From Bdellovibrionales bacterium RIFOXYC1_FULL_37_79 (lineage in GTDB: Bacteria > Bdellovibrionota > Bacteriovoracia > Bacteriovoracales > Bacteriovoracaceae), in the NCBI GenBank assembly GCA_001770015.1, contig MEQB01000011.1, positions 1 through 64,000 on the forward strand: a DNA stretch of 64,000 nt. The letters run 5' to 3'. Numbering within the stretch: position 1 is the stretch's first letter; every line of letters starts with the position of its first letter. The notes beneath the pieces are model-generated. The model did no database searches and was not told where the DNA came from. It saw nothing but the letters and a program-made list of their open reading frames with translations. Positions 28,399 to 46,125 of this stretch are shown here, piece by piece. A program made the translations under genes and the position numbers.

Positions 28399-30438
28399 TC
28401 ATATATTTGTATTCAGTTTTTTTAATGCATGCTCTCGGCAAAGATCGATTTCTTCGGGGGTGATTTCGAGATCATGGCCCATGATGGTCGATAGCTTGAT
28501 ACCGTGTTTTCTTGCCAGGGAGTCTATTTCGCGAACTTTATGATAGTCGAGGTTTCTTGACAGGGTAAAGGATTCAAAGCGTGATTCCAGGGCAAGCAGG
28601 GCAGTTTCAGCAAGGCAAGCATATACGGTATTGCCGGGAAGGCCAATATCGCATGTGATTTTAGGATTACCTGGAAGTTTAACCTCACCGCTGGCGATCA
28701 CTAGCACATCAGGTCTTTTAGCTGCATCTTCCTTGGTTATATCAAATGGACGGCTGACGTCACAAATAACACATCCTGGTTTAACTTTTTCAATATCAAT
28801 TATTTTTGCCTTGTTTGCACTCGTGGTGGTGATTATGTAATCTGAGGAAGGGGCGTATTTATTACTGTCTGTTGATAGATGGATTTCACAATGAGGGTTA
28901 ATCTTTTCAATTTCTTCTTTTAATTCAAGTAGAGCGTGAGGGCGGGGGGAAATGAGCACGACAGTTTTCCAGGATTGACAAAGGAGTTTAGCACAAACGG
29001 TGCCGATACTGCCGGTCGCACCAATAACCATGACTTGTCCATGGAAGGTTTTATCAACTTTTTTAACCAGACCCATTCTTTCAATTGCAAAACTTCCTGC
29101 CCATAAAGTTGCGGCTGCGGAAAGTGAATTTCCGGTGGTTACCGGCACTGGACTAAATCTGGCAACGGTGACACCTGCATCACCTACAATTTTTGTATAA
29201 GCACCAAGACCCATGACTTGAATGCCATTTTTTTTTGCATGTTTGCATATGGCTATAAGTTTTTTATAAATAGGTTCCGGTTCGCTGGTTAATAACATTT
29301 TTGGCGTTTCAAACAGAGTGTAGATAATTCCTTTGGCCTTGCTTCCATTGGGGCTTATGATTTCCCCTATTTCTCCATATTTCACGCCAGGGGCAAGCGT
29401 GATCATTTTTTCAATCAAAGGATTCATTTTTTTGCTAAAGGGTAGAATGGGTTTGAGCAGAGGGTGCCTGAAAAGATCTCTGGTTGAAAGAGGATGAACA
29501 ATAAAGCCAAATTTTTTGACTTCTTCAAGTCGATCTTTAAAATCTACAACATGGGGTTTTAAATCATAGGTATCAATCCATTCAAAAATGTCTTCGTTGG
29601 AGATAGGAAGTTTGCTTCTCTTGATTATTTGAAAGATTGCCTCAATAACGGCATAATTTAGATCTTCTTGATAAAATGGTGCTGGTGTGCAACTTATGAT
29701 TCTGGTAATACCCGCCAGCTCAAGTCGTTTTTTATTTTTACTATCAAGTCGGTCAAGAACCATGGTTTTTCCAGAGAGTTGGTCAATTTTAACCCTTTCA
29801 AGCTGGGCACAGTTGGAAACGTAAATATCGCAATTATAAAATTTTGAAAGTGATTTATATTTTAACAATTTGTTCTTTGTAAAATCCTTCTCTTTGTATC
29901 TTTCTAATTTGCTCTTTAGAAGAAATTCCTTAATGGTGAAAAAGAACCGCTCGACACTTTTTTTTCCACTTAAGGTGCGGGGAATTCCCATAAGAAAATA
30001 AGGGTCACAGGAGATTAGTTCAGAAGCATATTCTTCAAAGATATTAAGCAATCTGGTTTGTATTATTCCGCTAAAAAATCCAACCTTTTTGTTGATCATT
30101 AAATCAGGGTTTGCGATCAGGTATTTTTGAATTGTCCAAGGAAGATAAATTTCACGAAACTTACTTCCATCGACCACAAGGCTTTGCTTCACCAGTTTAC
30201 TTACTTGAGAAAGGATGGGGTGCATGTAATTTTTTTTTCCAATACTACTTCCGCTTGGAAGGCCTGAAATAGCGATAACATCTGCTCTACCGTCGTGTTT
30301 TGTAACTAGATCGCAATAAAGTTTTATGTTTAAATCAACTCCGTAATGAGTAATGCGAAATTTCTGGCCGGCAAATTCAATAATCTTGCTGAAGTTGGTG
30401 TTGGGGGAGTTGGTGGAGATATTTATTATTTCTTTCAT
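28399..30438 (-). CDS. acyl-ACP reductase (AAR)-like protein with extra N-terminal half
   Basis: A 679-residue protein in two parts. The C-terminal ~330 residues resemble cyanobacterial aldehyde-forming acyl-ACP reductase: QVMGLGAYTKIVGDAGVTVA, the TTGNS segment, the NAD(P)-binding GATGSIGTVCAKLL, then IICDVSRPFDI-like and VYACLAETALLALE segments. The N-terminal ~340 residues (ADVIAISGLPSGSSIGKKNY, DIYVSNCAQLERVKIDQLSG) have no family I can name. The protein overlaps the SDR gene upstream by 4 bp (ATGA). By analogy it could reduce an acyl thioester to an aldehyde within a lipid pathway. The family relation is clear; the reaction is inferred. The usual catalytic Cys of AAR is not obvious to me. 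Confidence 0.72.
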   Translation of the reverse strand: MKEIINISTNSPNTNFSKIIEFAGQKFRITHYGVDLNIKLYCDLVTKHDGRADVIAISGLPSGSSIGKKNYMHPILSQVSKLVKQSLVVDGSKFREIYLPWTIQKYLIANPDLMINKKVGFFSGIIQTRLLNIFEEYASELISCDPYFLMGIPRTLSGKKSVERFFFTIKEFLLKSKLERYKEKDFTKNKLLKYKSLSKFYNCDIYVSNCAQLERVKIDQLSGKTMVLDRLDSKNKKRLELAGITRIISCTPAPFYQEDLNYAVIEAIFQIIKRSKLPISNEDIFEWIDTYDLKPHVVDFKDRLEEVKKFGFIVHPLSTRDLFRHPLLKPILPFSKKMNPLIEKMITLAPGVKYGEIGEIISPNGSKAKGIIYTLFETPKMLLTSEPEPIYKKLIAICKHAKKNGIQVMGLGAYTKIVGDAGVTVARFSPVPVTTGNSLSAAATLWAGSFAIERMGLVKKVDKTFHGQVMVIGATGSIGTVCAKLLCQSWKTVVLISPRPHALLELKEEIEKINPHCEIHLSTDSNKYAPSSDYIITTTSANKAKIIDIEKVKPGCVICDVSRPFDITKEDAAKRPDVLVIASGEVKLPGNPKITCDIGLPGNTVYACLAETALLALESRFESFTLSRNLDYHKVREIDSLARKHGIKLSTIMGHDLEITPEEIDLCREHALKKLNTNI

Positions 30439-31496
30439 TTGATTTTTTCGCTCTTTAAAAAATCATTAAACCCTTTGAAAAATTTTTTTTGATAATTTTT
30501 AAATAAAAAATTATCAAGGAGATCGGGATAATCTTTTAATCTGTTATCAATATGGTAACCGCCGATGTCGTTCATATAAGGTAAAATTTCACTTGGTATC
30601 TCAAGTTTGCGGGCAAAAGCCTTGTACAGGGGTTGAAAAGTGCTAAATGGTTTAAAATCTCCAGCAAGTTTGAATTCATCTCTGCAAACTGCCAGAAATT
30701 CTTTAACGGTAGGATTATTTTCGGGAACGAGGTTATATATTTTTACCGGATCATCCCCCTGAGGGTTGGTTAGCATGTGTGCAATCCAGTTACAGACCAT
30801 ATCAACGGGGATGAGAGGTAAAATAGTTGTTGGATTAAACGGAAACAAGATGAAAGGAAGCTTTTTTATCATTTGAGTGATAAAAAAATTCCCCGATAAA
30901 AATTTGAGAAAATAATAGGGTCCATCAATTCGATTTATCCTTCCGGTAGTACTATCACCAACCACGATGCCTGGCCGATAAATCCGAACCTTGGCATTGA
31001 TGAAAATAGATTTCCTAACCATCAATTCGGCTGACATTTTGGTTTGTGCATAATTATTGGAATATTTAACTTTTGGAATGCGCTCAACACTTTCAAAAAG
31101 ATCCCCTTGTAGATCTCCTTTTACAGCGATGGTTGATAGATAATGGAAGTATTTTAACTTTTTAATTTGCTGGGAAAAGGTTAAAAGATTGAAGGTGCCA
31201 ATAATGTTGGTGATATAACATTCCGTGGCGTCAGCCTGTAAATCATATAAAGCAGCGGCGTGAAGTATGACATCAACATTTTTTAAGATCATTTCGCGAT
31301 CTTCTTTTTTTGAGAAAATCTGTCTTTCGGTGAGATCACCTTGGATTAAGATAATCTTGGGCGTTTTTGAATAAATAGATTTATTTATTTGAGCCGGATT
31401 TCGCACTAAAAGAAATATTTTATCAAAATCCTCCATGATTTTTTTTGTAATTTCACTTCCAAGAAAACCAGTTGCTCCTGTAATTAAAATATTCAT
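30435..31496 (-). CDS. extended SDR, fatty-acyl reductase/epimerase-like
   Basis: A 353-residue extended short-chain dehydrogenase. It has the NAD(P) motif ITGATGFLGSEITKKI, VILHAAALYD, LSTIAVKGD, the catalytic YAQTK (YxxxK) and RPGIVVGDSTTGRI. The last two points, and the loop RIDGPYYFLKFL, are like the reductase domain of fatty acyl-CoA and thioester reductases (NAD_binding_4) and of LinC-type proteins rather than sugar epimerases. It lies between a lipid kinase (6 bp gap) and the AAR-like gene (4 bp overlap), so it probably works on an acyl or keto-lipid intermediate. Confidence 0.75.
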   Translation of the reverse strand: MNILITGATGFLGSEITKKIMEDFDKIFLLVRNPAQINKSIYSKTPKIILIQGDLTERQIFSKKEDREMILKNVDVILHAAALYDLQADATECYITNIIGTFNLLTFSQQIKKLKYFHYLSTIAVKGDLQGDLFESVERIPKVKYSNNYAQTKMSAELMVRKSIFINAKVRIYRPGIVVGDSTTGRINRIDGPYYFLKFLSGNFFITQMIKKLPFILFPFNPTTILPLIPVDMVCNWIAHMLTNPQGDDPVKIYNLVPENNPTVKEFLAVCRDEFKLAGDFKPFSTFQPLYKAFARKLEIPSEILPYMNDIGGYHIDNRLKDYPDLLDNFLFKNYQKKFFKGFNDFLKSEKIK

Positions 31497-31501
31497 AAAT
31501 A

Positions 31502-32479
31502 TTAAAACGCCTCAATCATATCCAATCCGTAGCTATGCTCTTGGATGTTGCCACTTTTAAAACAGAAACAATGGATAAAGTTAGGATTAATGGTAATGTT
31601 AAAAGTTTTGTTGGTTACTAACTGTTCGCCGTCTCCAAAGAACATCAATTGTTCCTTATCTAAATTGGTAAGTTTGACATTATCTGTTTCAAAAAAAATC
31701 AGGTCAGGATCATTTATGGGGAAATTTCCTTTTTTGATACTAAGAATGGCCTGAATTAAGGATTTTCTGGTTTGATGGGTGAAGATGGTAACATTGAATT
31801 TGCCATCTTGGTTGCAGGTGGCAGGGGCTAAATTAAATTTTCCAGCAAGTGTTGGCTGATTGTTTATAAAAAGCATGGGAGTTTTAACTTTAATAATTTT
31901 TTTCTCAAGATGAGATGATTCAATTTTGATATTGTAGTGTGGAAAGTTCCATTTTGTAATCTTAAATCCTAAAATCATGGAATAAATTTGGTCTCCGGTA
32001 TATCTCATAATATCACGAAAAAACGGAAATTTTGACCTAAGGGTATTAATGGAAGTGGCGACATCGCTGGCAAGCCCGATTCCGCCGTTGGTAATCATGT
32101 ATTTCCCATTGATGTTAATCAGATCGATTGGTTCAATTTGCCGGTTTTGAAACATCGTAATTATTTTTTTTATATTTCTACTTATTCCTAATTCGCCAGC
32201 AAGGTCGTTGGCAGTCCCGGTTGGGATAATAAGTAACCTAACCGGGGTCCCGGCCAGTTCTTGGATTAAAACGTTGGCGGTGCCATCTCCTCCTACGGAA
32301 AATATGTATTCTGTACCCTCTTTAATATCGCATGCCACTTCTTTTTTTAACCCGTCAATTGACGGAGGTGTGTGGAATATCAATTTATGTCGAAACAGAT
32401 ATTCCTTAAGCTTGTTTTCCCATACTATTCGATCAGTGCCGCTTGCTTTGGCATTTAAATAAATTGATATCTTTGCCAT
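31502..32479 (-). CDS. diacylglycerol/sphingosine kinase-family lipid kinase
   Basis: A 325-residue DAGK_cat-domain protein. It has the nucleotide-binding SVGGDGTANVLIQEL and the IPTGTANDLAGELG loop typical of bacterial DgkB/YegS and sphingosine kinases. The C-terminal beta-sandwich carries MITNGGIGLASDVA, and FFGDGEQL. It transfers phosphate from ATP to a lipid hydroxyl at the inner membrane. It is the first gene of the three-gene unit with the SDR and the AAR-like enzyme, so the phosphorylated lipid is probably a pathway intermediate or product. Confidence 0.85.
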   Translation of the reverse strand: MAKISIYLNAKASGTDRIVWENKLKEYLFRHKLIFHTPPSIDGLKKEVACDIKEGTEYIFSVGGDGTANVLIQELAGTPVRLLIIPTGTANDLAGELGISRNIKKIITMFQNRQIEPIDLININGKYMITNGGIGLASDVATSINTLRSKFPFFRDIMRYTGDQIYSMILGFKITKWNFPHYNIKIESSHLEKKIIKVKTPMLFINNQPTLAGKFNLAPATCNQDGKFNVTIFTHQTRKSLIQAILSIKKGNFPINDPDLIFFETDNVKLTNLDKEQLMFFGDGEQLVTNKTFNITINPNFIHCFCFKSGNIQEHSYGLDMIEAF

Positions 32480-32579: not shown

Positions 32580-33713
32580 ATGATGGAAAATCTCTTCTTA
32601 TGGGTGAAAAACATGCATAATCAATATTTTAGTGACCTAAATTATTCTCTTGGAAACGAAGATACTAAAGTGGAATATGAGATGGTTAGGAGATTAAAAC
32701 CTAATACTATTATTTCAGTATGTGGTTCAGGCAGTAGGACATTGCCCTTGCTTGCATCTAGTCCCCAAAAAATGATCTGTGTAGATTTGGCTTCTCAGCA
32801 ACTTGGGTTACTGAGACTTAGAATTGAGGTGTTAAAAAAGCTTAGTTACGATGAATTTTTAAAGTTTTGGGGATATGCTCCATATGCGAATACTTCACTA
32901 AATCGAAATGAAAGAAAAGCGATGTTTGAAAAATTATCGTTACTCGCTTCAGACTGGGAATATTTTTATCATTTGTTCACCAAAAATGATTGGGATACGA
33001 TTTTATATGAGGGAAAATGGGAAAAAACCTTTTTTATATTCAGTCGTTTTGTTTATTTGATGTTGAAAGAGAGAAGAGGTGAACTTTTTGAATGCAAAAC
33101 TCTCCTCTTACAAAAGGAGTATATCAAGAAGAAATTTCCCAGATGGAGATGGACGTTTATTTTGTTTATCTTGGGAAATCGTTCCATGTTCAATACGCTT
33201 CTTTACAAAGGCCAATTTGTTAAAAAAAATATCCCAAAGGGGTATTTGAAATTTTACATCGATGCTTTTAATTATTTATTTAACCAGATTCTTGCGAGGG
33301 AAAACTTTTTTTTACAAATTTGTTTTCTTGGGAAAATAATGTTTAGGGAGGCAAATATTCTTGAAGCCGAGCGTGTTTGCTTTGATGAGATGAAAAGTAA
33401 TTTAAATCAACAGTCTACGGAGATAATAGAGGTACAGGGGGATTTGATTCAAACCATCTGTAGTTATGAACAGGTTGATTTTATTTCCATGAGTGATGTA
33501 CCCAGTTATTTTTCAGGTGAACAAGAGAAAAACTTTTTGCAAACAATCAAATCAAGTCTTTTACCAGGAGCAATTCTGGTACTTCGAAATTACCTGCGCG
33601 TACCGGAGTGTGATCAAGGCGGTTATGAGGATGTAACTGACCAATATCGTGACCTTATCGCACAAGAAAAGGTTCAAGTATATCAGTTTTGTATATTAAG
33701 GTACAAGGGTTAA
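32580..33713 (+). CDS. DUF3419 (BtaA-like) lipid aminocarboxypropyl/methyltransferase-fold protein
   Basis: A 377-residue protein of the DUF3419 family, which includes BtaA, the enzyme that transfers 3-amino-3-carboxypropyl from SAM to diacylglycerol in betaine-lipid synthesis. It has the SAM-site-like ISVCGSGSRTLPLLAS and MICVDLASQQLGLL, a family-typical YEGKWEKTF, and a C-terminal FISMSDVPSYF and GAILVLRNYLR. No BtaB partner is next to it. It is divergent from the lipid kinase unit (100 bp) and shares its stop bases TTAA with the convergent dikinase gene. A role in the same lipid pathway is likely; the precise reaction is unknown. Confidence 0.75.
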   Translation: MMENLFLWVKNMHNQYFSDLNYSLGNEDTKVEYEMVRRLKPNTIISVCGSGSRTLPLLASSPQKMICVDLASQQLGLLRLRIEVLKKLSYDEFLKFWGYAPYANTSLNRNERKAMFEKLSLLASDWEYFYHLFTKNDWDTILYEGKWEKTFFIFSRFVYLMLKERRGELFECKTLLLQKEYIKKKFPRWRWTFILFILGNRSMFNTLLYKGQFVKKNIPKGYLKFYIDAFNYLFNQILARENFFLQICFLGKIMFREANILEAERVCFDEMKSNLNQQSTEIIEVQGDLIQTICSYEQVDFISMSDVPSYFSGEQEKNFLQTIKSSLLPGAILVLRNYLRVPECDQGGYEDVTDQYRDLIAQEKVQVYQFCILRYKG

Positions 33714-36457
33714 CCAAGGTTAATGTTATTTAATTCCTCAAGTTTGCCCCCGAGGTGCACTAATCCCTTAGAGCCGTCCAAGGCAACTATCTGTCCATTT
33801 TTAATTTTATCGGTTACATCGGTAAGTCCGACAATGGTGGGTATTCCCATCTCCCTTGCCACTACAGCTGAGTGAGATAAGATAGAGCCTTTTTCAATCA
33901 GTAATCCGCTAATGGATGGAAAGATGGGAACCCAGCCAGGATCAGTTCTCTTGGTGACTAAAATTTCCCCGTTCATTTGACAATTATCCTGGGGAGAAAG
34001 AATCACTCTACATTCTTTTAGTAAAATGCCAGGACAGCATGGTGTTCCTTTTAATACCTCAGGTCCAAGATTAAGTCCTGCCAAGGGGTCAGGGAGTGTT
34101 GGTGTAATTTTGTTTGCCCTGTAATATGGTCCATAGGTGTAAAATCTTTCAGGTGGCTCAGTTCCGTTTTGATAATGATCATATTCCACACATCTTTGAT
34201 TGATTAACTTTTTATAATCAAAGGTAATAGATCTACCTTCAATGGGAGCAATAATTTCTTCCACCGAAAGCATGTATATATCTTTGGGATTGTTGATAAT
34301 TCCAGCCTCACAAAATTTTCTGGAAATTGCATTAAAAATCTGCCTGGAAAGTCCAAAAACTTTGGTGCGGGTAAAACGAAGCTCTTCCCGGTTTCTTACA
34401 GCTTTTTTGGTTTGTTTTACTACCCAGAAAAATATTTTTTTTCTGTTGAAAAAGAATAAAATCTTTTTATTTGGGATCAAGGTTAAACAATGTTTTTCCG
34501 CATTATAGGCTTTTTCCTTTTCCTTTTTTTCTTGAGTTTCTAGATCGATATTTCCCTTGATGAGATAATTTTTGAGCATGGTAAAGATAAAGCGTGGATT
34601 TTCTTTTAAGGAATCTACTTCCAATTTTAGTTCGTTAACGCATCTAAATCCATACACTTCGATGTATTCCTTTAGTTTTTTAGCAAGATCCAGCAACTGT
34701 GGGCCAGGGGATTGATAAATTAACTCATTCGTCAACTCATCTTCGTTGTGATCAAGTATATATTTTTTGATAGTTGGATGAGATAAAATCCAGTTTGATA
34801 GTTTAATCAATTCCTTGGTAGGTTTGGTGCTTTCCAGATCCCCTTGGGCGCACAAAAGATCATTTTGAATGCTTCCAGTTTCGTCAATTTTCCAAGAGAT
34901 GATTAGTTTTTTTAAAACTCCATAGAAAATCATTGTAAAAAAATCATTAACGATGGGGGTTTTCCAATTTCCAAGAAGGTCGCGTTGCAATCTTCGGTAA
35001 ATGTTGACGAGTTCGGTTTCGCTAAGATGGTCAAAGGGCAGCCGGGTTGCCCAGTTTTTGGTGATCTCATAATTTTGATAGAAATTTTTTATAGAGGTAT
35101 CAATTACTATGAATTGTTTGATGATGAGGCAAATGCCTTTGATAAGAGTTGGCAGTTCAATAAAATAGCGTCGGTAAAATGATAATTTTTCTTCTTTTTT
35201 ATCAACGTCCCCGGTATCTTTAACTCCCATCATGGATTCCATGAATTCTCTATTGAAGTTGTAACCCGGAAGTAACTTTAAAGTTTTATACCAATTGGTG
35301 AGGTTGTAATAAATACGGCCGTCAATATTTCCAAGCATGGTAGCAAAAACCGAGCCCATTTCATTTATTCGCTCCATGCTGGTTCCCATCAAGTTATAAA
35401 ATTGACGGTAAACCTGGTCATATGCATAACTTGCAAAGCTAAAGGTAAGTGGGCTGGTCACTCCACTATAGCTTTCAACAATGTTGGAATTATCCCAGAT
35501 CGTTTTTTCAAAGTTGCGATCAATACCCTTAAGGGTGGTGACGGGTCTGGTTTGTAAAACATAGCAAGATTCATTTTCATAGGTCCACTCTATGTCTTGA
35601 GGAATTTTTCCCTGTTCGCTTTCTATTTTTTTTCCAAGTTTGTATAATTCGATAACTTGGTCATCACTTAAACAGGGAATATTTCTTTTTTCTTCGGGAA
35701 CATCGAGAGTTAAGGTTGATTGCTGGGTTTTTTTGTTAAAAGTTATCATTTGGTCTTTTTCAACTATCTCTTTCTTATTGATGGTTGCTATGTTGGATAT
35801 AACCCAGTTATCGCAGTTTAAAACACCAGATACCACTCCTTCTCCAATACCCCAAGTGGCTGATACTATCATTTCGTCTGGATTGTTGGTAAGTGGATTG
35901 GCGGTAAAAAGAACACCGGATACTTCTCCAAAGATCATTTTTTGAATAATAACTGCCATTTTGATATTGAGAAGTTCGAGATTGTTTTGATAACGGTAAC
36001 TCAGCACTCTGGCTGAATAAGAGGAGGCATAACACCCCTTGATCTTATTGAATAAATTGGATTCACCTTTTACATAGAGGAAAGAATCCATCTGGCCTGC
36101 GAATGAAAAATCACTTCCGTCCTCATCTACGGCAGATGAACGGACGGAAAAATAACTATTTTCTAGGTTGAACGACGGTTCGGATTTTATTTTAGATAAA
36201 ATTTTATTTTTAAGCTCGGGTGAAAAATCAGTGGATAGAATAAGTTGTTTTAATTCCTGTTCACTGTTTTCCAATTCTCTTATATTATCAAGGGACCTTT
36301 TTTGGATAATTTCTTTTATTTGGCAAGTAATCTCCTTAGTGAATTCTTCAAAGAGGGTGACATCAAGAATAATAAAAGAGGGAACGTTCAGTCCGATTTT
36401 TTTTAATGCTTCAAGACCCATTGCTTTTCCACCAATTAGTTTTGCTTGATTTTTCAT
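33710..36457 (-). CDS. rifampicin-phosphotransferase-like dikinase (PEP synthase family)
   Basis: A 915-residue protein with the three-part order of rifampicin phosphotransferase. An ATP-binding PPDK_N domain (about 1-320) has LIGGKAMGLEALKKIG, YFSVRSSAVDEDG and VLQTRPVTTL. A long middle substrate-type domain follows (about 330-790), opening with IWDNSNIVESYSGVTSPLT. The swivelling phosphohistidine domain is at the C-terminus, with SILSHSAVVAREMGIPTIVG and His862 as phosphate carrier. The PEP/pyruvate-binding TIM barrel of true PEP synthase is missing. So it should phosphorylate a hydroxyl on a small molecule or lipid using both ATP phosphates. It heads no unit of its own but is read after the AMP-ligase/UbiA gene (18 bp gap). 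Confidence 0.82.
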   Translation of the reverse strand: MKNQAKLIGGKAMGLEALKKIGLNVPSFIILDVTLFEEFTKEITCQIKEIIQKRSLDNIRELENSEQELKQLILSTDFSPELKNKILSKIKSEPSFNLENSYFSVRSSAVDEDGSDFSFAGQMDSFLYVKGESNLFNKIKGCYASSYSARVLSYRYQNNLELLNIKMAVIIQKMIFGEVSGVLFTANPLTNNPDEMIVSATWGIGEGVVSGVLNCDNWVISNIATINKKEIVEKDQMITFNKKTQQSTLTLDVPEEKRNIPCLSDDQVIELYKLGKKIESEQGKIPQDIEWTYENESCYVLQTRPVTTLKGIDRNFEKTIWDNSNIVESYSGVTSPLTFSFASYAYDQVYRQFYNLMGTSMERINEMGSVFATMLGNIDGRIYYNLTNWYKTLKLLPGYNFNREFMESMMGVKDTGDVDKKEEKLSFYRRYFIELPTLIKGICLIIKQFIVIDTSIKNFYQNYEITKNWATRLPFDHLSETELVNIYRRLQRDLLGNWKTPIVNDFFTMIFYGVLKKLIISWKIDETGSIQNDLLCAQGDLESTKPTKELIKLSNWILSHPTIKKYILDHNEDELTNELIYQSPGPQLLDLAKKLKEYIEVYGFRCVNELKLEVDSLKENPRFIFTMLKNYLIKGNIDLETQEKKEKEKAYNAEKHCLTLIPNKKILFFFNRKKIFFWVVKQTKKAVRNREELRFTRTKVFGLSRQIFNAISRKFCEAGIINNPKDIYMLSVEEIIAPIEGRSITFDYKKLINQRCVEYDHYQNGTEPPERFYTYGPYYRANKITPTLPDPLAGLNLGPEVLKGTPCCPGILLKECRVILSPQDNCQMNGEILVTKRTDPGWVPIFPSISGLLIEKGSILSHSAVVAREMGIPTIVGLTDVTDKIKNGQIVALDGSKGLVHLGGKLEELNNINLG

Positions 36458-36475: not shown

Positions 36476-38962
36476 TTATTTAAGTAAGGCTAGAATGATG
36501 ATATTAATATGATTTCCCAGAAGACAAATAATCCCCCCTAGTTCGACCAATTTGGAATTTGTGGTGGTTGGATTTTTTATAAATTTAAACAACAATAATG
36601 AGCTTACAAGGAATAAAAGGAAACTGGTAATGTTGTTCCAGGGACTCATGTCAAATATTTTATAAAAGATCGTAGAGATTATAAAAATTAAAAAGTAACT
36701 GCTGGTTAAAATCATGGCGGTCTTTGGGATACCCCAGGTCTTGGTATAGCTGTCGGCGTGTTTATGTTCGCGTTCTTTTGACCATGTTTTTCTTGAAATT
36801 TCATAGGAAAAAGATAGTAGGGCAATAAAAAGAAATGATAACCAGATTTTAATATTAAATAGGAAATAGGGGGTTCCGGTTTGCAGGGATGAACTGACCG
36901 CATAACTGATCATGATAGGCAATATGGCCTGATGAGAAAGCAAATAAAGGGTTATTGATTTTTTCAGTCTTTCAGAGATAAAAAATTCTTTAAACATTAA
37001 AAAGGAGTAGGCGAAGACCGCACTCCACCAAAATAATTGTTCTATGGAAGAAATCAAATTCAATATAATTTGGATTAAAATGATTCCAATTAGTAATTTT
37101 CCAAGGTCTTTAAGCGTTACCACCCCTCTGGAAAGCAGCCTTTCCGGATGAGCATCACAATCATCCTTGTAATCTTTGAATTCATCAAAAAGACGAATAT
37201 GGAAAAAGACAAAAAAGAGTGTCATCAATCCCCAAAGCATGGGTGCGCTAAAAATATGGTCAATCTTATCATAGTAACTCAGTTGCCCCAAATAGAAACT
37301 GCTCAGAGAAAAACAGGTTACAAAAAGTAAAATGGCAACCAGAGGAAAACGTTCATTGGTATAGCAAAGAATTCGTTTAAAAAAATTTTCATTTTTAAGT
37401 TGTTCAATCTGGTCATTACTGTACATTTTTAATACCTCACTATAATCAATTTTACTATTATGTCGTTTGTCGACAGGAATTGTGTTGGCAAAAATAATTT
37501 TGGATGGGTGAATATCAAGTTCATGCAATTTATTTTCAATTTTTAAGCGGGTGTTATCGTTATGCATTCCCGGTTTTACAGAGACTAAAAGGGCGGTGGT
37601 CTTTTTATCTGAATCAAGCTGGAAGTAGGCGCATTTGATTATTTCTTCCAGGTTATTGATGATCGGTTCCACTTGCAAAGGAAAATGAATTTGATCGTTT
37701 TCGTTAATGATAGCATTGACTCTTCCAAGCATAAAAAGCTGACCGGATTTGTTTTGATAGCCAAGATCTCCGGTACGATGCCAGATGTTGCCTTGGTCAT
37801 CGATATATTTATTTTCCCTAAAGGCTTCCTCGTTCTGGTAATATTTTTTTCCAACAAATGGTCCGGTTAAAATAATTTCGCCAGTCTCTCCCACAGGTAG
37901 GGAAGATATGTCGGTCAGGTTATGGCGGGAGAATTTGATTATACGGGCGTTAATTTTTTCAACGGGAATACCCAGGGTGATTCCTTTTCCTTGAAGAGTG
38001 ATGTTTTGTGTATCCATTAAAACTTTGTCAGATGAAAGAAGAGCGATGGGTTCAGCCTCGGTTGATCCATAAACCAGATATAAGCTGGCGTTAGGCATGA
38101 GTTTTTCTAAAAATGAAAAGAGCCATGGGTTGACTGGGCCGCCACCGGTAAAAAATTTTTTCATGGAAGGGAGAGTAACTGAATGTTTGGAGGCATAATC
38201 GGTTAATGGTTCTATCAAAGCAGGAGAACAGGTCATGCTGGTTACTTTATGGGTGTTGATTTGGTTAATTACTTTGGAGGGGGAAAATGCAGAGATTTTT
38301 CGAAGATCAGCATCGATGATGACGCTGGTAATGCCGCTACCTAGATTGCCAAGTACAAAAACTGGAAACATGGCAAGATCGATGTCACTAGCTTCGTGAA
38401 AATAATATTCTTCATGGGCACGGTGTTGTGCTTGTAAAAAACCATGAGTTCGATCACACCCTTTGGGGTTATTGGTGGAACCGGTGGTGAAAGTGATGAG
38501 AGCCGAATCCTCTGGATTCATTTCTTCGCAAATAATATCAATATTAGAATTCAAATTGGCTTTTGAAATTAGTGTATCCAGAATAATTTTGTTTTTAATT
38601 CTAAATATTTCGTTTGCCTTTAACATGAGTATAACGGCTTTTCTGATATAAATGAGGAAATCTGGACGGACTTTTTTGAGACAATTATTTATATAATCCT
38701 TTGAAGCCCAAGGGTCAATAAAGACAGCTATGGCACCCATATGAAATAGGGCGGTGATGAGAACATAAAGATCAATTTTGACAGGAATTAAAAGAAAGAC
38801 ACGATCGCCTCTTTTAACTCCCATGGCCTTAAGGGCGGTTACCGTCTGATTGATTCTTTTATTAAAATCGCCAAAAGAGATGGAGGTCCCATCCGGTTCG
38901 ATAATAGCGGTTTTTTCTGGAAATTTTCTAAATGTTTGTAGGGCATTGGTCACCAAATTCAT
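36476..38962 (-). CDS. OleC-like acyl-adenylating enzyme fused to UbiA-like membrane domain
   Basis: An 828-residue fusion. Residues 1-~540 are an ANL-family enzyme with ITFTTGSTNNPKGCDRTHG (phosphate loop), YGSTEAEP, and WHRTGDLGYQNKSGQLFMLGR. The stretch around FLQAQHRAHEEYY and MFPVFVLGNLGSG is close to OleC, the beta-lactone synthetase of olefin biosynthesis. Residues ~550-828 hold about eight hydrophobic helices and the motif FDEFKDYKDDCDAHPERLLSRG, a UbiA-superfamily Asp-rich site. So one polypeptide may activate an acyl group and join it to, or move it onto, a membrane substrate. It is followed by the dikinase and overlaps the GNAT gene by 4 bp. Confidence 0.82.
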   Translation of the reverse strand: MNLVTNALQTFRKFPEKTAIIEPDGTSISFGDFNKRINQTVTALKAMGVKRGDRVFLLIPVKIDLYVLITALFHMGAIAVFIDPWASKDYINNCLKKVRPDFLIYIRKAVILMLKANEIFRIKNKIILDTLISKANLNSNIDIICEEMNPEDSALITFTTGSTNNPKGCDRTHGFLQAQHRAHEEYYFHEASDIDLAMFPVFVLGNLGSGITSVIIDADLRKISAFSPSKVINQINTHKVTSMTCSPALIEPLTDYASKHSVTLPSMKKFFTGGGPVNPWLFSFLEKLMPNASLYLVYGSTEAEPIALLSSDKVLMDTQNITLQGKGITLGIPVEKINARIIKFSRHNLTDISSLPVGETGEIILTGPFVGKKYYQNEEAFRENKYIDDQGNIWHRTGDLGYQNKSGQLFMLGRVNAIINENDQIHFPLQVEPIINNLEEIIKCAYFQLDSDKKTTALLVSVKPGMHNDNTRLKIENKLHELDIHPSKIIFANTIPVDKRHNSKIDYSEVLKMYSNDQIEQLKNENFFKRILCYTNERFPLVAILLFVTCFSLSSFYLGQLSYYDKIDHIFSAPMLWGLMTLFFVFFHIRLFDEFKDYKDDCDAHPERLLSRGVVTLKDLGKLLIGIILIQIILNLISSIEQLFWWSAVFAYSFLMFKEFFISERLKKSITLYLLSHQAILPIMISYAVSSSLQTGTPYFLFNIKIWLSFLFIALLSFSYEISRKTWSKEREHKHADSYTKTWGIPKTAMILTSSYFLIFIISTIFYKIFDMSPWNNITSFLLFLVSSLLLFKFIKNPTTTNSKLVELGGIICLLGNHINIIILALLK

Positions 38963-40077
38963 TGCAGTTCCTTGTGAAGAAGTTCGTAAACTCCGAAATT
39001 TTCTGCACTAGTAGAATAATTCCCTGAAGGGTTATCTGCAATAAAAAGAGCATGAATTGCTTCCTTATAATTTGCTTGGAGTGCGTAATTATGGGTCCAA
39101 TACATAAGGGCCTTTCCTAGGCCAATATTGCGATAATCCGGATGAACTGCCATGGTCTTGACCAAAAGACGATCTATTTTTCTTTTTTTAATTAAAAAAA
39201 TAAGTTTTGTCAGAAGGTTTTGTCTTCCTTTCATAGCTTTTAACACATCAATGTAGTCGGGCATACAAAATAAAAAACCAATTAGATTGTTGTTTTTTTC
39301 TGCCAGACAAAAATAACGGGGATCAATTAAGGTTTTACCCTCATAGTACATTGTATAAAACTCATCATAGGAAATAGGTGTGTAGAGAAAATTTTCGTGA
39401 AAGGAAATTTTACAAAAATCGTATAGTTTTTTGATCTCTTGATCAAAATTATTAAGTGATAATGGACGAAGTATGATCCCTGCTTTAATGACATTTAAAA
39501 ATGCGGGAGTATTTTTTAAAACGAGATTTTGCATCTCTGGGTGAGTGAGTTTTCTTGAAAGATAGCTTCGTAGTATTTGATAACCAAAATTTTTATAAAA
39601 CACTGGATAATAAGCCGGATTGTAAGGCTCAAAAAGGTAGCTTGGGTGATTAAAATTAAATGTTTTAAAGCGATAGGTATGCCATGTGGTAAAATTGATG
39701 GGAGCAATTATTCGTTTAATTTTATGGTTATTTTTGAAATAATTTTCAACAATTTCCATTAATGTTTTAAAACATGCTTCATCGTTAACACATTCAAAAA
39801 AGCCAATTAGGAGCGTTTGGGTATTATCCAAATTGATGTCGGGATGAATAACGCCAATTGCTCGTGCCGCAGGTGAACCATTCATATAAAGTAAAAATTT
39901 TTTATGGGTTATTTTTTTATAAATAGGGTAATTGGACTTTAAATATTTTGATTCATTGTCTTTAAATGAGATCAGGCGATTTGGATCATTTTGATAAATG
40001 ATGGAAGGTAATTTCAAAAATATCTCAATTTTGTCCTCATCAAACTCAAAAATGTCATGTCTGTAAATTCTATTCAT
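38959..40077 (-). CDS. GNAT-family acyltransferase-like protein
   Basis: A 372-residue protein of the long GNAT type with an N-terminal half of its own (KLPSIIYQNDPNRLISFKDN, then ARAIGVIHP) and a C-terminal acyl-CoA-binding part, LLVKTMAVHPDYRNIGLGKALM, where the RNIGLGKA loop is motif A. Proteins of this kind are often annotated as GTP or lipid-linked acyltransferases with unknown substrate. It is the first gene of a three-gene unit with the OleC-UbiA fusion (4 bp overlap) and the dikinase, and it is divergent from the ABC exporter operon. Confidence 0.72.
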   Translation of the reverse strand: MNRIYRHDIFEFDEDKIEIFLKLPSIIYQNDPNRLISFKDNESKYLKSNYPIYKKITHKKFLLYMNGSPAARAIGVIHPDINLDNTQTLLIGFFECVNDEACFKTLMEIVENYFKNNHKIKRIIAPINFTTWHTYRFKTFNFNHPSYLFEPYNPAYYPVFYKNFGYQILRSYLSRKLTHPEMQNLVLKNTPAFLNVIKAGIILRPLSLNNFDQEIKKLYDFCKISFHENFLYTPISYDEFYTMYYEGKTLIDPRYFCLAEKNNNLIGFLFCMPDYIDVLKAMKGRQNLLTKLIFLIKKRKIDRLLVKTMAVHPDYRNIGLGKALMYWTHNYALQANYKEAIHALFIADNPSGNYSTSAENFGVYELLHKELQ

Positions 40078-40178
40078 GGTAATCTTTTTTGTAGCCGCAC
40101 CTTTTTTTGTCTATTAAACTGACTATTATACGAAGACGTATAGATGTCTATAAGTTTGAAAATTTTGCCGGATATTCT

Positions 40179-40856
40179 ATGGAATCAAAAAATCTCTATC
40201 ATTGCGAAAATTTAGAATTTAACTATTTTTCTGGTACTCAAATCATACCAGCACTTAGAGGAGTATCTACCGAGGTTAACCTTGGTGATTTTGTGTGCTT
40301 GAGCGGTCCGAGCGGATCAGGCAAGTCAACTCTTTTGAATTTACTTGGAATGATTGAACCTGTTCAAAAGGGTGTGATGACTTTTAAGAATTTAAGGATA
40401 AGCGAACTTTCTGAAGCACAAAAGAATCATTTAAGACGTCATGAACTTGGTTTTATTTTTCAATTTTTTCATCTTATGCCAACTCTTTCAGCATATGAAA
40501 ATGTGGAATTTTTTCTTTTGAGACAGGGTATAACCAAATTGGAACGCGAACAAAGAGTTAAACAGGCATTGGAGTCAGTGGGGATATGGGATTTTAGAGG
40601 TCAAAAACCGCTGGAGCTCAGCGGTGGCCAAAGACAAAGGGTTGCTCTGGCTCGAGCCCTGGCAAAAAAACCCTCCGTCATTATTGCTGACGAACCAACC
40701 GCCAGTTTGGATCAAAAAACCGGACGAGAAGTGGTGGATATACTTCTTGAGCTTAATCAAAAACAAGGCGTCACCATAGTACTTGCTAGTCACGACCCCA
40801 TGGTAATAGAGAGATCCCCTAGAAAACTTTCACTTAGAGATGGGAAGCTTACCTGA
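40179..40856 (+). CDS. ABC transporter ATP-binding protein (LolD/MacB type)
   Basis: I prefer ATG 40179 (ESKNLYHCENLEFNYF), since the 24 residues from an earlier TTG do not look like the family. The 225-residue ATPase has Walker A GPSGSGKST, the Q-loop FQFFHLMPTLSAYENV, signature LSGGQRQRVALARAL, Walker B VIIADEPTASLD and H-loop LASHDP. FHLMPTLSAYENVE is typical of the LolD/MacB/FtsE group, which serve FtsX-type permeases. It powers export or extraction from the inner membrane with the permease encoded next. Confidence 0.88.
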   Translation: MESKNLYHCENLEFNYFSGTQIIPALRGVSTEVNLGDFVCLSGPSGSGKSTLLNLLGMIEPVQKGVMTFKNLRISELSEAQKNHLRRHELGFIFQFFHLMPTLSAYENVEFFLLRQGITKLEREQRVKQALESVGIWDFRGQKPLELSGGQRQRVALARALAKKPSVIIADEPTASLDQKTGREVVDILLELNQKQGVTIVLASHDPMVIERSPRKLSLRDGKLT

Positions 40857-40882
40857 TTAGGTCAAGATTTACAGGAGTTTGA

Positions 40883-42091
40883 ATGAAACTGATTATCATT
40901 GCATATAAAAATTTACTTAGAAATACTCGAAGGACATTTACCATTCTGCTTACCATTACTTGTGGTATGGGCGCACTTTTTCTTTATCATGGTTTTAACT
41001 CGGGGATAATGAATCAATATAAGTTTAATTGTATTCGTTCCCGTTATGGACATGGCCAGATCAATCTAAAAAATTACCTGGATCAAACTTATGAGAAACC
41101 TTGGGAGCATTGGATAGAGAATTACTCCGAAGTTGAGAGTTTTCTTAAAGAACAACCAGAAGTCAAACATGTTTTTCCACGTCTTCAATTTTTTGCACTT
41201 TTGACTAACGGAAAAATTAACGTCTCGGGAAGAGGCCAGGGCATTGATGGGGTTGAAGAAGATAAATTTTTTACTGCTATGAATGTAGAAGAAGGAAAAA
41301 ATTTAAGCAATGAAGCAGACGGTATTATCCTTGGCAAAGGACTGGCTAGAACTCTTAATGTAGGTATCGGAGACAATGTAACGGTACTTGCCAATACTGT
41401 TTACGGAAGTTTAAATGGAGTTGATTTGCAAGTAGTTGGTATTTTTCATACAGGTGCCAAGGATTTTGACGACGTGGTTTTTAGATTACAACTTAAACAG
41501 GCCCAAATTCTTTTAGATACCAACAAAGTTGAAAGTGTATCCCTTGGTCTTTATAAGGATGAAAATTGGCAAACAGTTTCAACCCTGATCTCTAATCGGT
41601 TTAAAAATCTGGAGAGTATCCCTTTTGAAATTCTTGATAAGGTATATTACAAGCATGCGGTAGATTTTTTAAAAGCCCAGTTTGATGCCATAAAAATGAT
41701 TATCCTTGTAATCATTATCCTTGGAATTTTCAATACCATTTCAACCGCAGTGCTGGAGAGAAAACAAGAGATTGGAAATCTTAGGGCGAACGGAGAGTCA
41801 GTGGCTGATGTTATGAAACTTTTCTCTTTAGAAGGACTACTTATGGGGATAATCGGAAGCTTGCTGGGTTTATTCGCTGCTTGGCTTTTGAATAATACGA
41901 TCCTTATGAATGGAATTTTGATGCCTCCAAGTCCTGGTATCACTAGACAATTTCATGTTTTTGTCGAACTGCAACCTGGTTATTCGCTGGTGACGTTTGC
42001 TCTTGGATTAGTCACCTCATTTATTGCTACTTTTTTAGCGACATTAAAAGTGGTAAGAAGACCTATTGGGGAATTACTTCGTTCTCACTAA
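40883..42091 (+). CDS. FtsX/MacB-type ABC permease
   Basis: A 402-residue permease with one N-terminal helix (TFTILLTITCGMGALFLYHGF), a large periplasmic MacB-PCD-type domain (about 40-260, with VEEGKNLSNEADGIILGKGLA), and three C-terminal helices from about 280 (IKMIILVIIILGIFNTIST, LEGLLMGIIGSLLGLFAAWL, LVTFALGLVTSFIATFLA). This is the four-helix layout of LolC/E and MacB. With the ATPase before and the LolA-like carrier after it, lipid or lipoprotein extraction from the inner membrane is the most likely role. Confidence 0.85.
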   Translation: MKLIIIAYKNLLRNTRRTFTILLTITCGMGALFLYHGFNSGIMNQYKFNCIRSRYGHGQINLKNYLDQTYEKPWEHWIENYSEVESFLKEQPEVKHVFPRLQFFALLTNGKINVSGRGQGIDGVEEDKFFTAMNVEEGKNLSNEADGIILGKGLARTLNVGIGDNVTVLANTVYGSLNGVDLQVVGIFHTGAKDFDDVVFRLQLKQAQILLDTNKVESVSLGLYKDENWQTVSTLISNRFKNLESIPFEILDKVYYKHAVDFLKAQFDAIKMIILVIIILGIFNTISTAVLERKQEIGNLRANGESVADVMKLFSLEGLLMGIIGSLLGLFAAWLLNNTILMNGILMPPSPGITRQFHVFVELQPGYSLVTFALGLVTSFIATFLATLKVVRRPIGELLRSH

Positions 42092-42108
42092 GATATTAAG
42101 GAGATATT

Positions 42109-42810
42109 ATGCGACGGTTGGTTTATTTAATAGTATGTCTTCAAGTTTTTTTTGCAAACGCAAAAGAAATAGATGTTAATTTCATCTTAGAGAAGTCGGA
42201 TGCCATCCGCAATCCATCTGATTCATTTTTTATGGAAGTGAGGGTTGAAAGTAAAGAGGAGAGTGAAGAAAGCCTGTTTGAAGTTTACACCAAAGGCAGA
42301 GACAAGACTTTGATTAAAACCATAATGCCAACTATGAATAGAGGGAGAAATCTTTTAATGCTTGAAGAAAATATGTGGGTCTATGTTCCTAACCTCAAGA
42401 GAGCGGTGCGGGTTTCTCTTTCTCAAAAGTTAACCGGTCAAGCCGCCAATGGTGATATCAGCCGGATGAGGTGGGCCAGTGATTATGAACCAAAACTGAT
42501 TGGTCAAGATAAACAAAGTTGGAATCTTTTTTTAACTGCAAAGAAAAAAGGATTAACCTATGATAAAATCCGCATATGGGTAAAGAAGAAAAACTTTCAT
42601 CCAATTAAAGCGGAATATCTAACCGTAAATGAGAAGATTTTAAAGACTGCTTGGTTTGATGGATATAGAGAAATTGCCGGGGGTGTGAGACCAACCAAAA
42701 TTCAAATTGAATCTGCCTTGAACAAGAAAGACACGAGCCTTATAGAAATTAAAAAAATGGAAGTGAAAAGCTTTCCTGAATCCAATTTTCAAAAAGATAA
42801 TCTTCAATAA
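42109..42810 (+). CDS. LolA-like periplasmic lipid/lipoprotein carrier
   Basis: A 233-residue exported protein (RRLVYLIVCLQVFFANA) of the LolA_like family annotated as outer membrane lipoprotein-sorting protein. It has the single-domain half-barrel order with YTKGRDKTLIKTIMPTMNRGRNLLMLEENMWVY broken across two segments, LTGQAANGDISRM, then KIRIWVKKKNFHPIKAEYLT and GVRPTKIQIE. Such proteins often sit beside RND or ABC exporters and are thought to carry hydrophobic cargo across the periplasm. The gene lies 17 bp after the permease and 5 bp before a beta-barrel gene. Confidence 0.82.
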   Translation: MRRLVYLIVCLQVFFANAKEIDVNFILEKSDAIRNPSDSFFMEVRVESKEESEESLFEVYTKGRDKTLIKTIMPTMNRGRNLLMLEENMWVYVPNLKRAVRVSLSQKLTGQAANGDISRMRWASDYEPKLIGQDKQSWNLFLTAKKKGLTYDKIRIWVKKKNFHPIKAEYLTVNEKILKTAWFDGYREIAGGVRPTKIQIESALNKKDTSLIEIKKMEVKSFPESNFQKDNLQ

Positions 42811-42815
42811 AAACG

Positions 42816-44015
42816 ATGAAAAAAATAATTTTGCTTTTTGCGCTTTTCACATTTGTAACCTATCAAGCAAACAGCGAACCAGTTTTGACTGGCGAGGCTA
42901 TGTTTGATTATGCTCATTTGTCAAAAACGCAGATTTCCGATGAGGATGACTTGATCAGGTCAAGGCCTTCAGTAATGGCTAATTTTTCAAGATCGCTAGG
43001 CCAGGGCAAAGAGAGGTTATCACCTTTCAGTATTGAAGGAAGTTTTTACGGCTATGCTAATTTTAAAGAAGGAGAAACTGGAAAAAGTGAATTTCGAAAG
43101 TTAATTTTAAATTATAAGGGTGATCATAATGTTTTTAACCTAGGCATGCAAAGTATCAGCTGGAGTGAAACTTTTGGTGTCAATATCATGGACGTGGTTA
43201 ACCCCCGGGATTATTCATTCTATGTTTTTGATGATTTAAACATGAGTAAGATTCCCGTCAGTATCATTAATTATCAGTATTTTTATAATGATTTTTCCTT
43301 CCAGCTTATTTACAACCCTGAGGCTAAATTTGATAGATTGCCTGGACATGGTTCTTTGTTTGATCCTTATGCAAAATATAACTTGCCACTAGAACAGACT
43401 CCTTCTCCTAAAGCTTTCTCTGATAGCGAATTCGGCGGGAGAGTTAGATATCTTTTCAGTGGAGGACTTGATCTGGGATTTATTTATTATTCACACTTTA
43501 ATAGAAATCCCGCAATCTATCTTGACCCAGCTTTAAATAAACTTCATTCCCACTTTGAAAAAGTTAATAGTTTTGGAGAGACCTTTTCTTTGGTAGTGGG
43601 TGAACTCGTGTTGAGAGGGGATTATCTTTATACACCAGATACTCCTTACGCAACCAATGATTTGAGTTTTCGTTATAGCGATAGACATCAAGCTATTTTA
43701 GGTGGGGATTATAGTACGGCAAATGGGTTTTCGTTTGGCGTGCAACTTCATATGGATACGCTTTTCGATCATCAATGGATAAGTGCTCAGCTGAAAAATA
43801 GTTTTATGGGTGAGACTTTCCGGCCGTCATTGATGATCTTTTCAGGTTTAGATAACCAGGATTTATGGGCAAGAGCTGAATTTAGTTATTTTTATACATC
43901 TTCTTTTCAAATTGCTCCCCAGTATAATTATCTAGCAGGAAAAAGCGGGGAAGGAATTTTTGGAGAGTTCACCGATAAAGATTATTATCAGTTGATGGTC
44001 AAGTATTTGTTTTAA
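42816..44015 (+). CDS. outer-membrane beta-barrel protein
   Basis: A 399-residue exported protein (KKIILLFALFTFVTYQANS) rich in alternating amphipathic strands (FSIEGSFYGYANF, YSTANGFSFGVQLHMD), ending YYQLMVKYLF with the terminal Phe common in outer-membrane barrels. The stretch LGMQSISWSETFGVNIMDVVNPRD is like DUF1302-type barrel proteins next to exporters. It is the last gene of the ABC-LolA unit and is probably the outer-membrane acceptor or channel for the cargo. Confidence 0.8.
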   Translation: MKKIILLFALFTFVTYQANSEPVLTGEAMFDYAHLSKTQISDEDDLIRSRPSVMANFSRSLGQGKERLSPFSIEGSFYGYANFKEGETGKSEFRKLILNYKGDHNVFNLGMQSISWSETFGVNIMDVVNPRDYSFYVFDDLNMSKIPVSIINYQYFYNDFSFQLIYNPEAKFDRLPGHGSLFDPYAKYNLPLEQTPSPKAFSDSEFGGRVRYLFSGGLDLGFIYYSHFNRNPAIYLDPALNKLHSHFEKVNSFGETFSLVVGELVLRGDYLYTPDTPYATNDLSFRYSDRHQAILGGDYSTANGFSFGVQLHMDTLFDHQWISAQLKNSFMGETFRPSLMIFSGLDNQDLWARAEFSYFYTSSFQIAPQYNYLAGKSGEGIFGEFTDKDYYQLMVKYLF

Positions 44016-44448: not shown

Positions 44449-46125
44449 ATGAAATTTGTAATTATTTTTGCTTTTGCTTTCGCTTTGAGCATGCACTTGT
44501 TTGCTAAAGATCAAATATTAGTTTTATCAGGAGGTTTATCACCAGATAACAACCACTATTCTCAATATCTTCAAACAAGGCTTTTATATAAATATTTAAG
44601 AGATCGTTTTAGGTATAAAAAGGTTGATGTAATGTTTGGTGTGGGGAACAATACAGCTGCTCCGCTTATTTTTCCAGATGTACACAAAATTAATTTTGAA
44701 GATCAATTTGAAATTGCTCAAACAATCCATGGGGTTATTGATAATAATACTTCTGCAACCAAAGAAAATATTATTCGTTATTTTCAAAATGATATTGAGG
44801 GTGATGTTAATACTTTCTTTCTATTTGTAAGTGATCATGGATTACCTAATAAGAACGATCCGAGTTATGACAACAATTGTATTGCTTTATGGAGTTATGA
44901 TCAAAATAATATGAATAATATTAGTTTTGAAAATTTATGTTTTTCAAGGGAAAATCTTGAAGATCTTATTAATAATAATTTTCAAGATAAGAAATTTATT
45001 TTTACTATGGCTCAATGTTTTTCTGGTGGATTTCATCGACTATCAGTAAAATTGCAAGATGGATATCCAGTTGCGAACCATAATGTCTGCGGATTTACTT
45101 CCGTTGCCGAAGATACTGTTGCAAGTGGATGTACACCAGATGCCAGTGGCCCTAATTATCAAGGATATGAAAGATACTTCACGGAACAGTTCACTGGAAT
45201 AGATGTTGTGACCGGATTTGAGTTACCAAATGTTTCAAATGATACCATTTTGAAAGCGCATCAATCTGCCTCATTAATAGATATGACATTAGATGCTCCA
45301 CATACGACTTCAGAGTTTTATTTAAGGGAGTGGAGCAAGCGTTTTTCGAATAGGAATTTCATTCCACGATCAGGAAATTTATCAAGTGAAGAAATAAACT
45401 TAAAATTAAAAAAATATTCATCAACATTTCCACCAGAAATTAATGAAAAAACAAAATCAAAAGAGCTGAAAAATATTTTCCAGCTTAAGCGCAATTTTTT
45501 AATAAAAATGCAATCAGCCATAACAAAAAAATATCCTGATTTGAATTCTGTATTTGAGTCAAATAATATTGACGAAATAATATTGGCACACAAGGATGTT
45601 AAAGAAAAAGCCAGTCAGGAACTTGCTAAATATTTTGATATGGAAAAAAAATATGAATATCTTGTTAAAACCCATATTCAAGATTTATGGATTAATGCCC
45701 TAAAAAATGATGAAATTCCCTATTTATCGGAGATAGAGAAAAAGTTTGAATTAGAAGTTTTACCGAGTAATGATAAAAACTTTATTTTTTTGTTGAGTAA
45801 ATATACGCATGAAAATGGCGAAGAATATGCTAACAGAATTTCTCGTTATAATTCTAAAAGATATAGATTTATGACTGATTATGCCATGATCTATGGAAAT
45901 GAAATTGAACGGGAAGCAGCCAAAGAAATGTATTTACTTGAACATAACATGCGCAATTTTATTGATCCTTATCTTAATCTTGATCGTAAGCAAGGTTTGA
46001 TTAGAAGGATAATTCTCATGAGGGAAGAGTTGGCATCGCTCGTGTTATTAGTTGAAATTGATGATCAAGCAGGATTACAAACATTTGTTGATCTTGAGCA
46101 TTGTGAGCAAACAGAATTTAATTGA
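44449..46125 (+). CDS. secreted legumain-like (C13) cysteine protease
   Basis: A 558-residue exported protein (signal peptide KFVIIFAFAFALSMHLFA). The N-terminal ~270 residues form a caspase/legumain-like hydrolase: ILVLSGGLSPDNNHYSQYLQ, then FLFVSDHGLPN with the catalytic His and MAQCFSGGFH with the catalytic Cys. The His-Gly and Gln-Cys order is that of peptidase family C13. The C-terminal half (about 290-558) is helical and charged with KKYEYLVKTHIQDLW, without a known family. It is preceded by GGAGG. In a predatory relative such an enzyme might act on prey or host proteins, but that is inference. Confidence 0.75.
   Translation: MKFVIIFAFAFALSMHLFAKDQILVLSGGLSPDNNHYSQYLQTRLLYKYLRDRFRYKKVDVMFGVGNNTAAPLIFPDVHKINFEDQFEIAQTIHGVIDNNTSATKENIIRYFQNDIEGDVNTFFLFVSDHGLPNKNDPSYDNNCIALWSYDQNNMNNISFENLCFSRENLEDLINNNFQDKKFIFTMAQCFSGGFHRLSVKLQDGYPVANHNVCGFTSVAEDTVASGCTPDASGPNYQGYERYFTEQFTGIDVVTGFELPNVSNDTILKAHQSASLIDMTLDAPHTTSEFYLREWSKRFSNRNFIPRSGNLSSEEINLKLKKYSSTFPPEINEKTKSKELKNIFQLKRNFLIKMQSAITKKYPDLNSVFESNNIDEIILAHKDVKEKASQELAKYFDMEKKYEYLVKTHIQDLWINALKNDEIPYLSEIEKKFELEVLPSNDKNFIFLLSKYTHENGEEYANRISRYNSKRYRFMTDYAMIYGNEIEREAAKEMYLLEHNMRNFIDPYLNLDRKQGLIRRIILMREELASLVLLVEIDDQAGLQTFVDLEHCEQTEFN

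Follow-up and report, generated by a model that had tools for sequence, protein, structure and literature searches.

An ANL–UbiA fusion protein in a putative lipid-biosynthesis-and-export locus of the Bdellovibrionota

The stretch of contig MEQB01000011.1 of Bdellovibrionales bacterium RIFOXYC1_FULL_37_79 that was analysed (hereafter the window, 64,000 nucleotides in total) encodes a protein in which an acyl-adenylate-forming (ANL) half is followed by a UbiA-fold membrane half. This raises the question of whether the two halves are joined because their reactions are coupled, and to which pathway such reactions might belong. It is judged slightly better than an even chance that the halves catalyse consecutive steps of an uncharacterised pathway for an exported outer-membrane lipid, and we infer that, at the membrane, one and the same lipid passes through both reactions in turn. 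The fusion in itself is a sign of functional coupling, not of a hand-off of substrate from one half to the other.

Domains, motifs and nearest families of the two halves

The reading frame of the fusion protein is uninterrupted from ATG to stop (Table 1). Pfam identified an AMP-binding domain (PF00501) at residues 11–375 with an E-value of 2.8e-46 and a UbiA domain (PF01040) at residues 573–799 with an E-value of 6.9e-8, the latter at 32.5 bits in the whole protein and 34.7 bits when the membrane half was scanned alone (gathering score 34.2). AlphaFold prediction of the whole chain from a 52-row alignment (pLDDT 90.8, pTM 0.79) contains both folds, joined by helices across residues 507–538, and the UbiA half modelled alone reached a pLDDT of 88.4. 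Foldseek analysis with the whole model returned ANL enzymes (best E-value 7.6e-29), and with the UbiA half the matches ranked 1–14 all belong to the UbiA superfamily, the first being the DGGGP synthase 6m31 (E-value 4.4e-7, TM-score 0.64). An earlier note made from the sequence alone had described a single polypeptide with an ANL domain and a membrane part of the UbiA superfamily, which agrees with these results, and the two motifs that it quoted are present, the proposed OleC-like signature FLQAQHRAHEEYY at residues 175–187 and the Asp-rich motif DEFKDYKDDCDAHPERLLSRG at residues 593–613. Its junction at about residue 540 has to be moved to approximately residues 507–526, closer to 515–525, with the UbiA half beginning at about 515–524; residue 540 is roughly where the first long membrane helix begins.

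The ANL half features the P-loop (residues 157–168), A5 (298–305), A7 (394–401) and A8 (from 413) motifs, and the A10 Lys is kept inside RHNSKID (498–506). The P-loop is slightly altered (GSTNNPKG). The AMP-binding domain, P-loop, A5, A7, A10 Lys and predicted ANL fold place this half in the ANL superfamily. The earlier note called it OleC-like, and this stands insofar as OleC and NF006754 (PRK09274) are the nearest named sequence families and share with it the ANL fold and an RHNxKI A10 motif. It does not extend to OleC itself. The ANL half scored 244 and 225 bits on the curated OleC models NF045785 and NF045786 (cut-offs 850 and 900) and 395 bits on the broader NF006754, below the cut-off of 478, whereas OleC genes within the OleABCD clusters of relatives scored 475–510 bits on the OleC models, likewise under cut-off, and 607–625 bits on NF006754. 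The phylogeny that the note had proposed, rooted on OleC, placed the OleC proteins from OleABCD clusters in their own clade with support of 99, apart from all 57 ANL proteins of the locus. The A5 motif reads YGSTEAEP in the window copy and YGATExLP in OleC, and the partners are UbiA and a dikinase as opposed to OleA, OleB and OleD, none of which was found alongside the fusion in the window's locus. Membership of OleC is rejected by the model scores, the separate clade, the differing A5 motif and the missing partners, and on these comparisons the ANL half is placed as a sister of OleC. True OleABCD clusters are found as separate loci in relatives of the same bacterial family, in keeping with the note's view that the fusion is not part of the classical olefin pathway. 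Upstream of most of these clusters in the Bacteriovoracaceae (L175–L184) lie additional genes for a ketoacyl synthase, a carrier protein and an FAD oxidoreductase.

The intact motifs of the window copy are not shared by the whole family. In relatives associated with a GNAT gene (L038, L039, L076, L083, L090 and others) the A10 Lys is replaced by Arg and the A8 hairpin is lost or its region shortened, so not every family member need adenylate, and adenylation may be changed or absent in part of the ANL family.

The UbiA half has D593, E594, K596, D597, D601 and R608 in the region of motif 1, followed by H677, and E721, R724, K725 and Y739 in the region of the second motif. Among 64 UbiA relatives an Arg, the DExKDxxxD and Arg of motif 1, a His, and an E-x-x-R-K with a later Tyr are invariant. 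The first Asp motif aligns with motif 1 of 6m31, the N-D of the canonical NDxxDxxxD being D-E here. The conserved Asp pair of the second motif is absent in the 64 relatives, and E721..R724 K725...Y739 is invariant in the expected region; the E..RK stretch appears to occupy the place of canonical motif 2, where the automatic alignment is loose. Use of a prenyl diphosphate is doubtful because this second Asp motif has apparently been replaced. Comparison with the canonical UbiA proteins of relatives by hhalign gave a probability of 98, and PF01040 matched 10 of 19 subfamily members at E <= 0.01; two stand-alone UbiA relatives had no match at all in a Pfam scan. Taken from sequence profiles and predicted structure, the UbiA half is a divergent subfamily inside the UbiA superfamily that retains the first Asp motif and appears to have replaced the second. 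The likeness to DGGGP synthase (6m31/7bpu) extends across about 300 columns of the fold, with motif 1 in the equivalent position. The differences lie in the two motifs and in the genome: a search of 36 related genomes, among them the genome of the window, gave no PcrB/GGGP synthase above the cut-off.

In the window's genome (96% complete) one polyprenyl synthase was identified, and no UbiA protein besides the fused one was found. Most other family members carry separate UbiA proteins of the quinone/heme type with high PF01040 scores in addition to the UbiA of this subfamily, which makes a role of the latter as quinone or heme O prenyltransferase unlikely. In a genome of the same genus (G001, 85% complete) no UbiA-superfamily protein was found, and a loss of quinone or heme O synthesis is possible in both genomes, as judged from gene content. 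CarS-like genes (CDP-archaeol synthase, PF01864, cut-off 22) stand beside two sister UbiA genes, one scoring 37.3 bits (L041:9719-10270) and the other just under the cut-off at 21.9 bits (L037:9008-9568).

Gene order around the fusion and in related genomes

On the minus strand of the window the locus reads GNAT, fusion, dikinase, lipid kinase, SDR and AAR-like gene; the plus strand carries the DUF3419 gene and an ABC/FtsX/LolA-like/DUF1302 export set (40107–44015), of which the DUF1302 protein is the probable outer-membrane part. The gene calls are the longest ORFs, with small overlaps and start sites being approximate, and the family HMMs were built from seeds that include the window.

Table 1. 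Features of the locus, in window coordinates.
Feature	Coordinates	Strand	Basis and remarks
Acyl-ACP-reductase-like (AAR-like) protein	28399..30438	-	NF053554, TIGR04058 below cut-off; 4ppm, 6jzu
SDR, NAD_binding_4 / thioester-reductase type	30435..31496	-	PF07993 E 5.9e-43; TIGR01746 below cut-off
Lipid kinase (DAGK/YegS family)	31502..32479	-	PF00781, PF19279
DUF3419 protein (BtaA-type aminocarboxypropyl transferase family)	32580..33713	+	PF11899 E 1.8e-29; syntenic in relatives
Rph/PigC-type dikinase (ATP-grasp, middle domain, C-terminal swivelling His domain)	33710..36457	-	PF01326 + PF00391
ANL-UbiA fusion protein, 828 aa	36476..38962	-	single ORF; AlphaFold over whole chain
UbiA-fold membrane half, residues 515-828	36479..37420	-	PF01040, AlphaFold, Foldseek, invariant residues
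ANL (acyl-adenylate-forming) half, residues 1-514	37421..38962	-	PF00501, motifs, Foldseek
GNAT N-acyltransferase	38959..40077	-	PF00583; overlaps fusion start codon by 4 nt
ABC transporter ATPase (LolD-like)	40107..40856	+	PF00005
FtsX/MacB permease (LolE-like)	40883..42091	+	PF02687, PF12704
LolA-like periplasmic carrier	42109..42810	+	PF17131 E 7.8e-40
DUF1302 protein	42816..44015	+	PF06980 E 2.7e-10

The dikinase gene is located 18 nt downstream of the fusion. Its product has the ATP-grasp domain and the C-terminal swivelling domain with the catalytic His that assign it to the Rph type by sequence; its closest solved chains are 5fbs and 5hv1, and the His motif SHSAVVARE is kept. It resembles rifampin phosphotransferase and the PigC/RedH ligases in these two domains and in the long domain between them, but forms its own subfamily, which nearly always adjoins UbiA. 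The C-terminal half of the AAR-like protein is homologous to the reductase domain of PigE and to cyanobacterial AAR. This acyl-thioester reductase domain is also featured in prodigiosin PigE and tambjamine TamH (PMC8341465), and evidence has been given for the proposal that PigE's reductase part reduces an acyl thioester to an aldehyde (PMC8341465). The AAR-like protein differs from both in having no aminotransferase domain and in its N-terminal half of 300 aa. The DUF3419 protein belongs to the same domain family as BtaA of betaine-lipid synthesis, but no BtaB-like methyltransferase was noticed in the locus, which has an acyl- or formyl-transferase instead. The GNAT, SDR and lipid kinase genes hinted at a sphingolipid locus, a candidate set aside as no serine palmitoyltransferase was noticed within the locus. 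Sphingolipids have been reported for Bacteriovorax.

The same genes recur across the Bdellovibrionota in varying arrangements, and the order ANL, UbiA, Rph-type dikinase is conserved in this phylum, with the dikinase immediately downstream of UbiA in 50 of 64 relatives. Many relatives have a formyltransferase and an alpha/beta hydrolase in place of the GNAT, and the hydrolase is often fused to the ANL domain. In three loci (L029, L159, L160) homologues of the export genes come straight after the dikinase and share its strand, P450 genes lie alongside several relative loci, and the AAR-like gene is absent from some genomes with the ANL–UbiA–dikinase core. In Silvanigrella-like genomes (L225, L226, L110, L114) parts of the locus are split over two places, one sublocus encoding the ANL–UbiA fusion, dikinase, ABC and FtsX proteins. 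Outside the phylum, a Ketobacter-type locus (L227) has the UbiA–dikinase pair beside an MMPL exporter, an ICMT-family methyltransferase and a fatty-acid hydroxylase. A search of the open-access literature returned nothing relevant on UbiA with OleC, DUF3419 with a prenyltransferase, or UbiA in Bdellovibrio. With membership drawn from synteny, the locus looks like an apparently undescribed lipid-biosynthesis-and-export pathway of the Bdellovibrionota.

Recurrence and origins of the fusion

Besides the window copy, 13 distinct UbiA relatives have the ANL–UbiA architecture, as do two Silvanigrella-like genomes (L225, L226). The 13 comprise ORFs of 741–809 aa (L076, L082, L083, L085, L086, L090, L164, L165, L166, L174) and contig-edge fragments (L038, L087, L091), and with L091 counted as fused, 14 of the 64 distinct UbiA relatives are fused to an ANL domain. 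Nearly all of the fused relatives of stated source are metagenome-assembled, yet the assemblies are independent. A frameshift or assembly error at the junction, which the earlier note had named as grounds for abandoning the fusion, is excluded by the presence of the same architecture in so many other genomes.

In 42 of the 50 unfused cases an ANL gene lies immediately upstream of UbiA on the same strand, mostly overlapping it or no more than 12 nt away, and the association is not due to chance for this reason. The window fusion is thereby read as one representative of a pair of genes whose linkage is conserved among Bdellovibrio-type bacteria. UbiA genes with no adjacent ANL gene do occur (G005, G019, G012, G036 and similar genomes), so UbiA is not strictly dependent on ANL.

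Fused copies fell into three groups in the UbiA tree, which require three changes. With a support of 92, below the starred level, the window copy groups with L091, L164 and L174; the second group consists of L076, L082, L083, L086 and L087, and the third of L038, L085, L090, L165 and L166. One origin of all fusions was rejected by the AU test (p 1e-48), as were the pairwise joins (F2+F3, p 2e-4; F1+F2, p 6e-4). The trees come from rapid IQ-TREE runs and contain some long branches, and the fused groups were named after the tree had been seen; about three independent fusions of the pair is for these reasons a best estimate. At the junction of several fusions the former UbiA start Met is apparently kept, as expected from the loss of a stop codon between overlapping genes. 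At the UbiA–dikinase boundary, which overlaps equally, no fusion was seen among the 64 relatives.

Proposed pathway and alternative readings

The substrates, order of steps and product offered here are a guess from family membership. In the proposed scheme the ANL half would bind ATP and adenylate a long-chain, possibly hydroxylated, fatty acid, and the UbiA-fold half, lying in the inner membrane directly below it, would catalyse the chain-joining step that follows in the assembly of the same lipid. Like DGGGP synthase, it would attach a prenyl or alkyl chain, the acceptor being a hydroxyl or phosphate group of a lipid. The AAR-like protein and SDR could act as a reductase pair producing fatty aldehyde or alcohol, with the Rph-type dikinase phosphorylating a pathway alcohol and the lipid kinase providing a phosphorylation step. 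The DUF3419 enzyme would add an aminocarboxypropyl (homoserine-type) group, an amine may be capped by the GNAT, or by the formyltransferase in relatives, and the LolD/E/A-like and DUF1302 proteins would take the product to the outer membrane.

A neutral origin, in which overlapping genes were joined by lost stop codons and the two steps remain separate, coupled through co-expression only, is a possible but doubtful reading. Fusing is mechanically easy, because the two genes, where unfused, often share a 4-nt overlap and the old UbiA Met is kept at several junctions, and the hydrolase and ANL genes are likewise often joined; the same pair has nevertheless been fused about three times, and the dikinase boundary never in the relatives seen. 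At the other extreme, in a sharper version of the direct transfer put forward in the earlier note, the acyl-AMP made by the ANL half could itself be the donor for the UbiA-fold half, its acyl group being joined to an alcohol or amine in the membrane. The second Mg-binding Asp motif would then have been lost because an allylic diphosphate is no longer bound. That these two genes in particular are fused repeatedly and are almost always adjacent speaks for this direct transfer, as do the apparent replacement of the second motif by the invariant E..RK...Y and the genome's single polyprenyl synthase with no other UbiA protein. To our knowledge, however, no UbiA protein has an acyl donor, the first motif is retained, the family includes UbiA proteins not adjoined by an ANL gene, and the A10 Lys is missing from many ANL partners. 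Direct transfer is for us an unlikely reading, and equally unlikely is its boldest form, in which a UbiA-fold protein that has lost the second metal-binding motif accepts acyl-adenylate straight from a fused or adjacent ANL domain and would represent a chemically new type of membrane acyl/alkyl transferase, in an outer-membrane lipid pathway of the Bdellovibrionota not seen before.

True OleC activity, by which the ANL half would make a beta-lactone from a beta-hydroxy acid that is then opened in the membrane, is quite improbable. OleC/PRK09274 is the nearest named family and the A10 RHNSKI together with an FLxAQ stretch is OleC-like, but all three model cut-offs were missed where the OleC proteins of relatives score far higher, the clade and A5 motif differ, no OleA, OleB or OleD lies alongside, and relatives possess both systems. 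Very improbable is a bacterial DGGGP synthase in a locus leading to archaeol-like ether lipids: its fold is the best solved match and CarS-like genes stand beside sister UbiA genes, but the second Asp motif is apparently lost, and the archaeal ether-lipid pathway was rejected on the lack of a GGGP synthase over cut-off in the 36 genomes. Consecutive steps on one exported lipid is the reading that we retain, at the strength given at the outset.

The locus suggests an entire lipid pathway, distributed widely in the Bdellovibrionota, and no described product of it was found. Predatory lineages are among the members of this phylum. Should the proposal prove true, a further class of outer-membrane lipid would be present in bacteria some of which depend on recognising and invading other bacterial cells, and the UbiA superfamily would gain a subfamily whose chemistry is altered. 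Recurrent fusion also gives a concrete lead as to the two steps that are coupled, and closed genomes carrying the unfused pair exist as candidates for knock-out and lipidomics.

Elsewhere in the window, three ORFs of 558–623 aa (44449–46125, 17252–19030 and 25548–27419) had no Pfam match at E <= 1e-5. One further ORF (47236–48918) encodes a GNAT domain fused to the ribosome-assembly GTPase RsgA.
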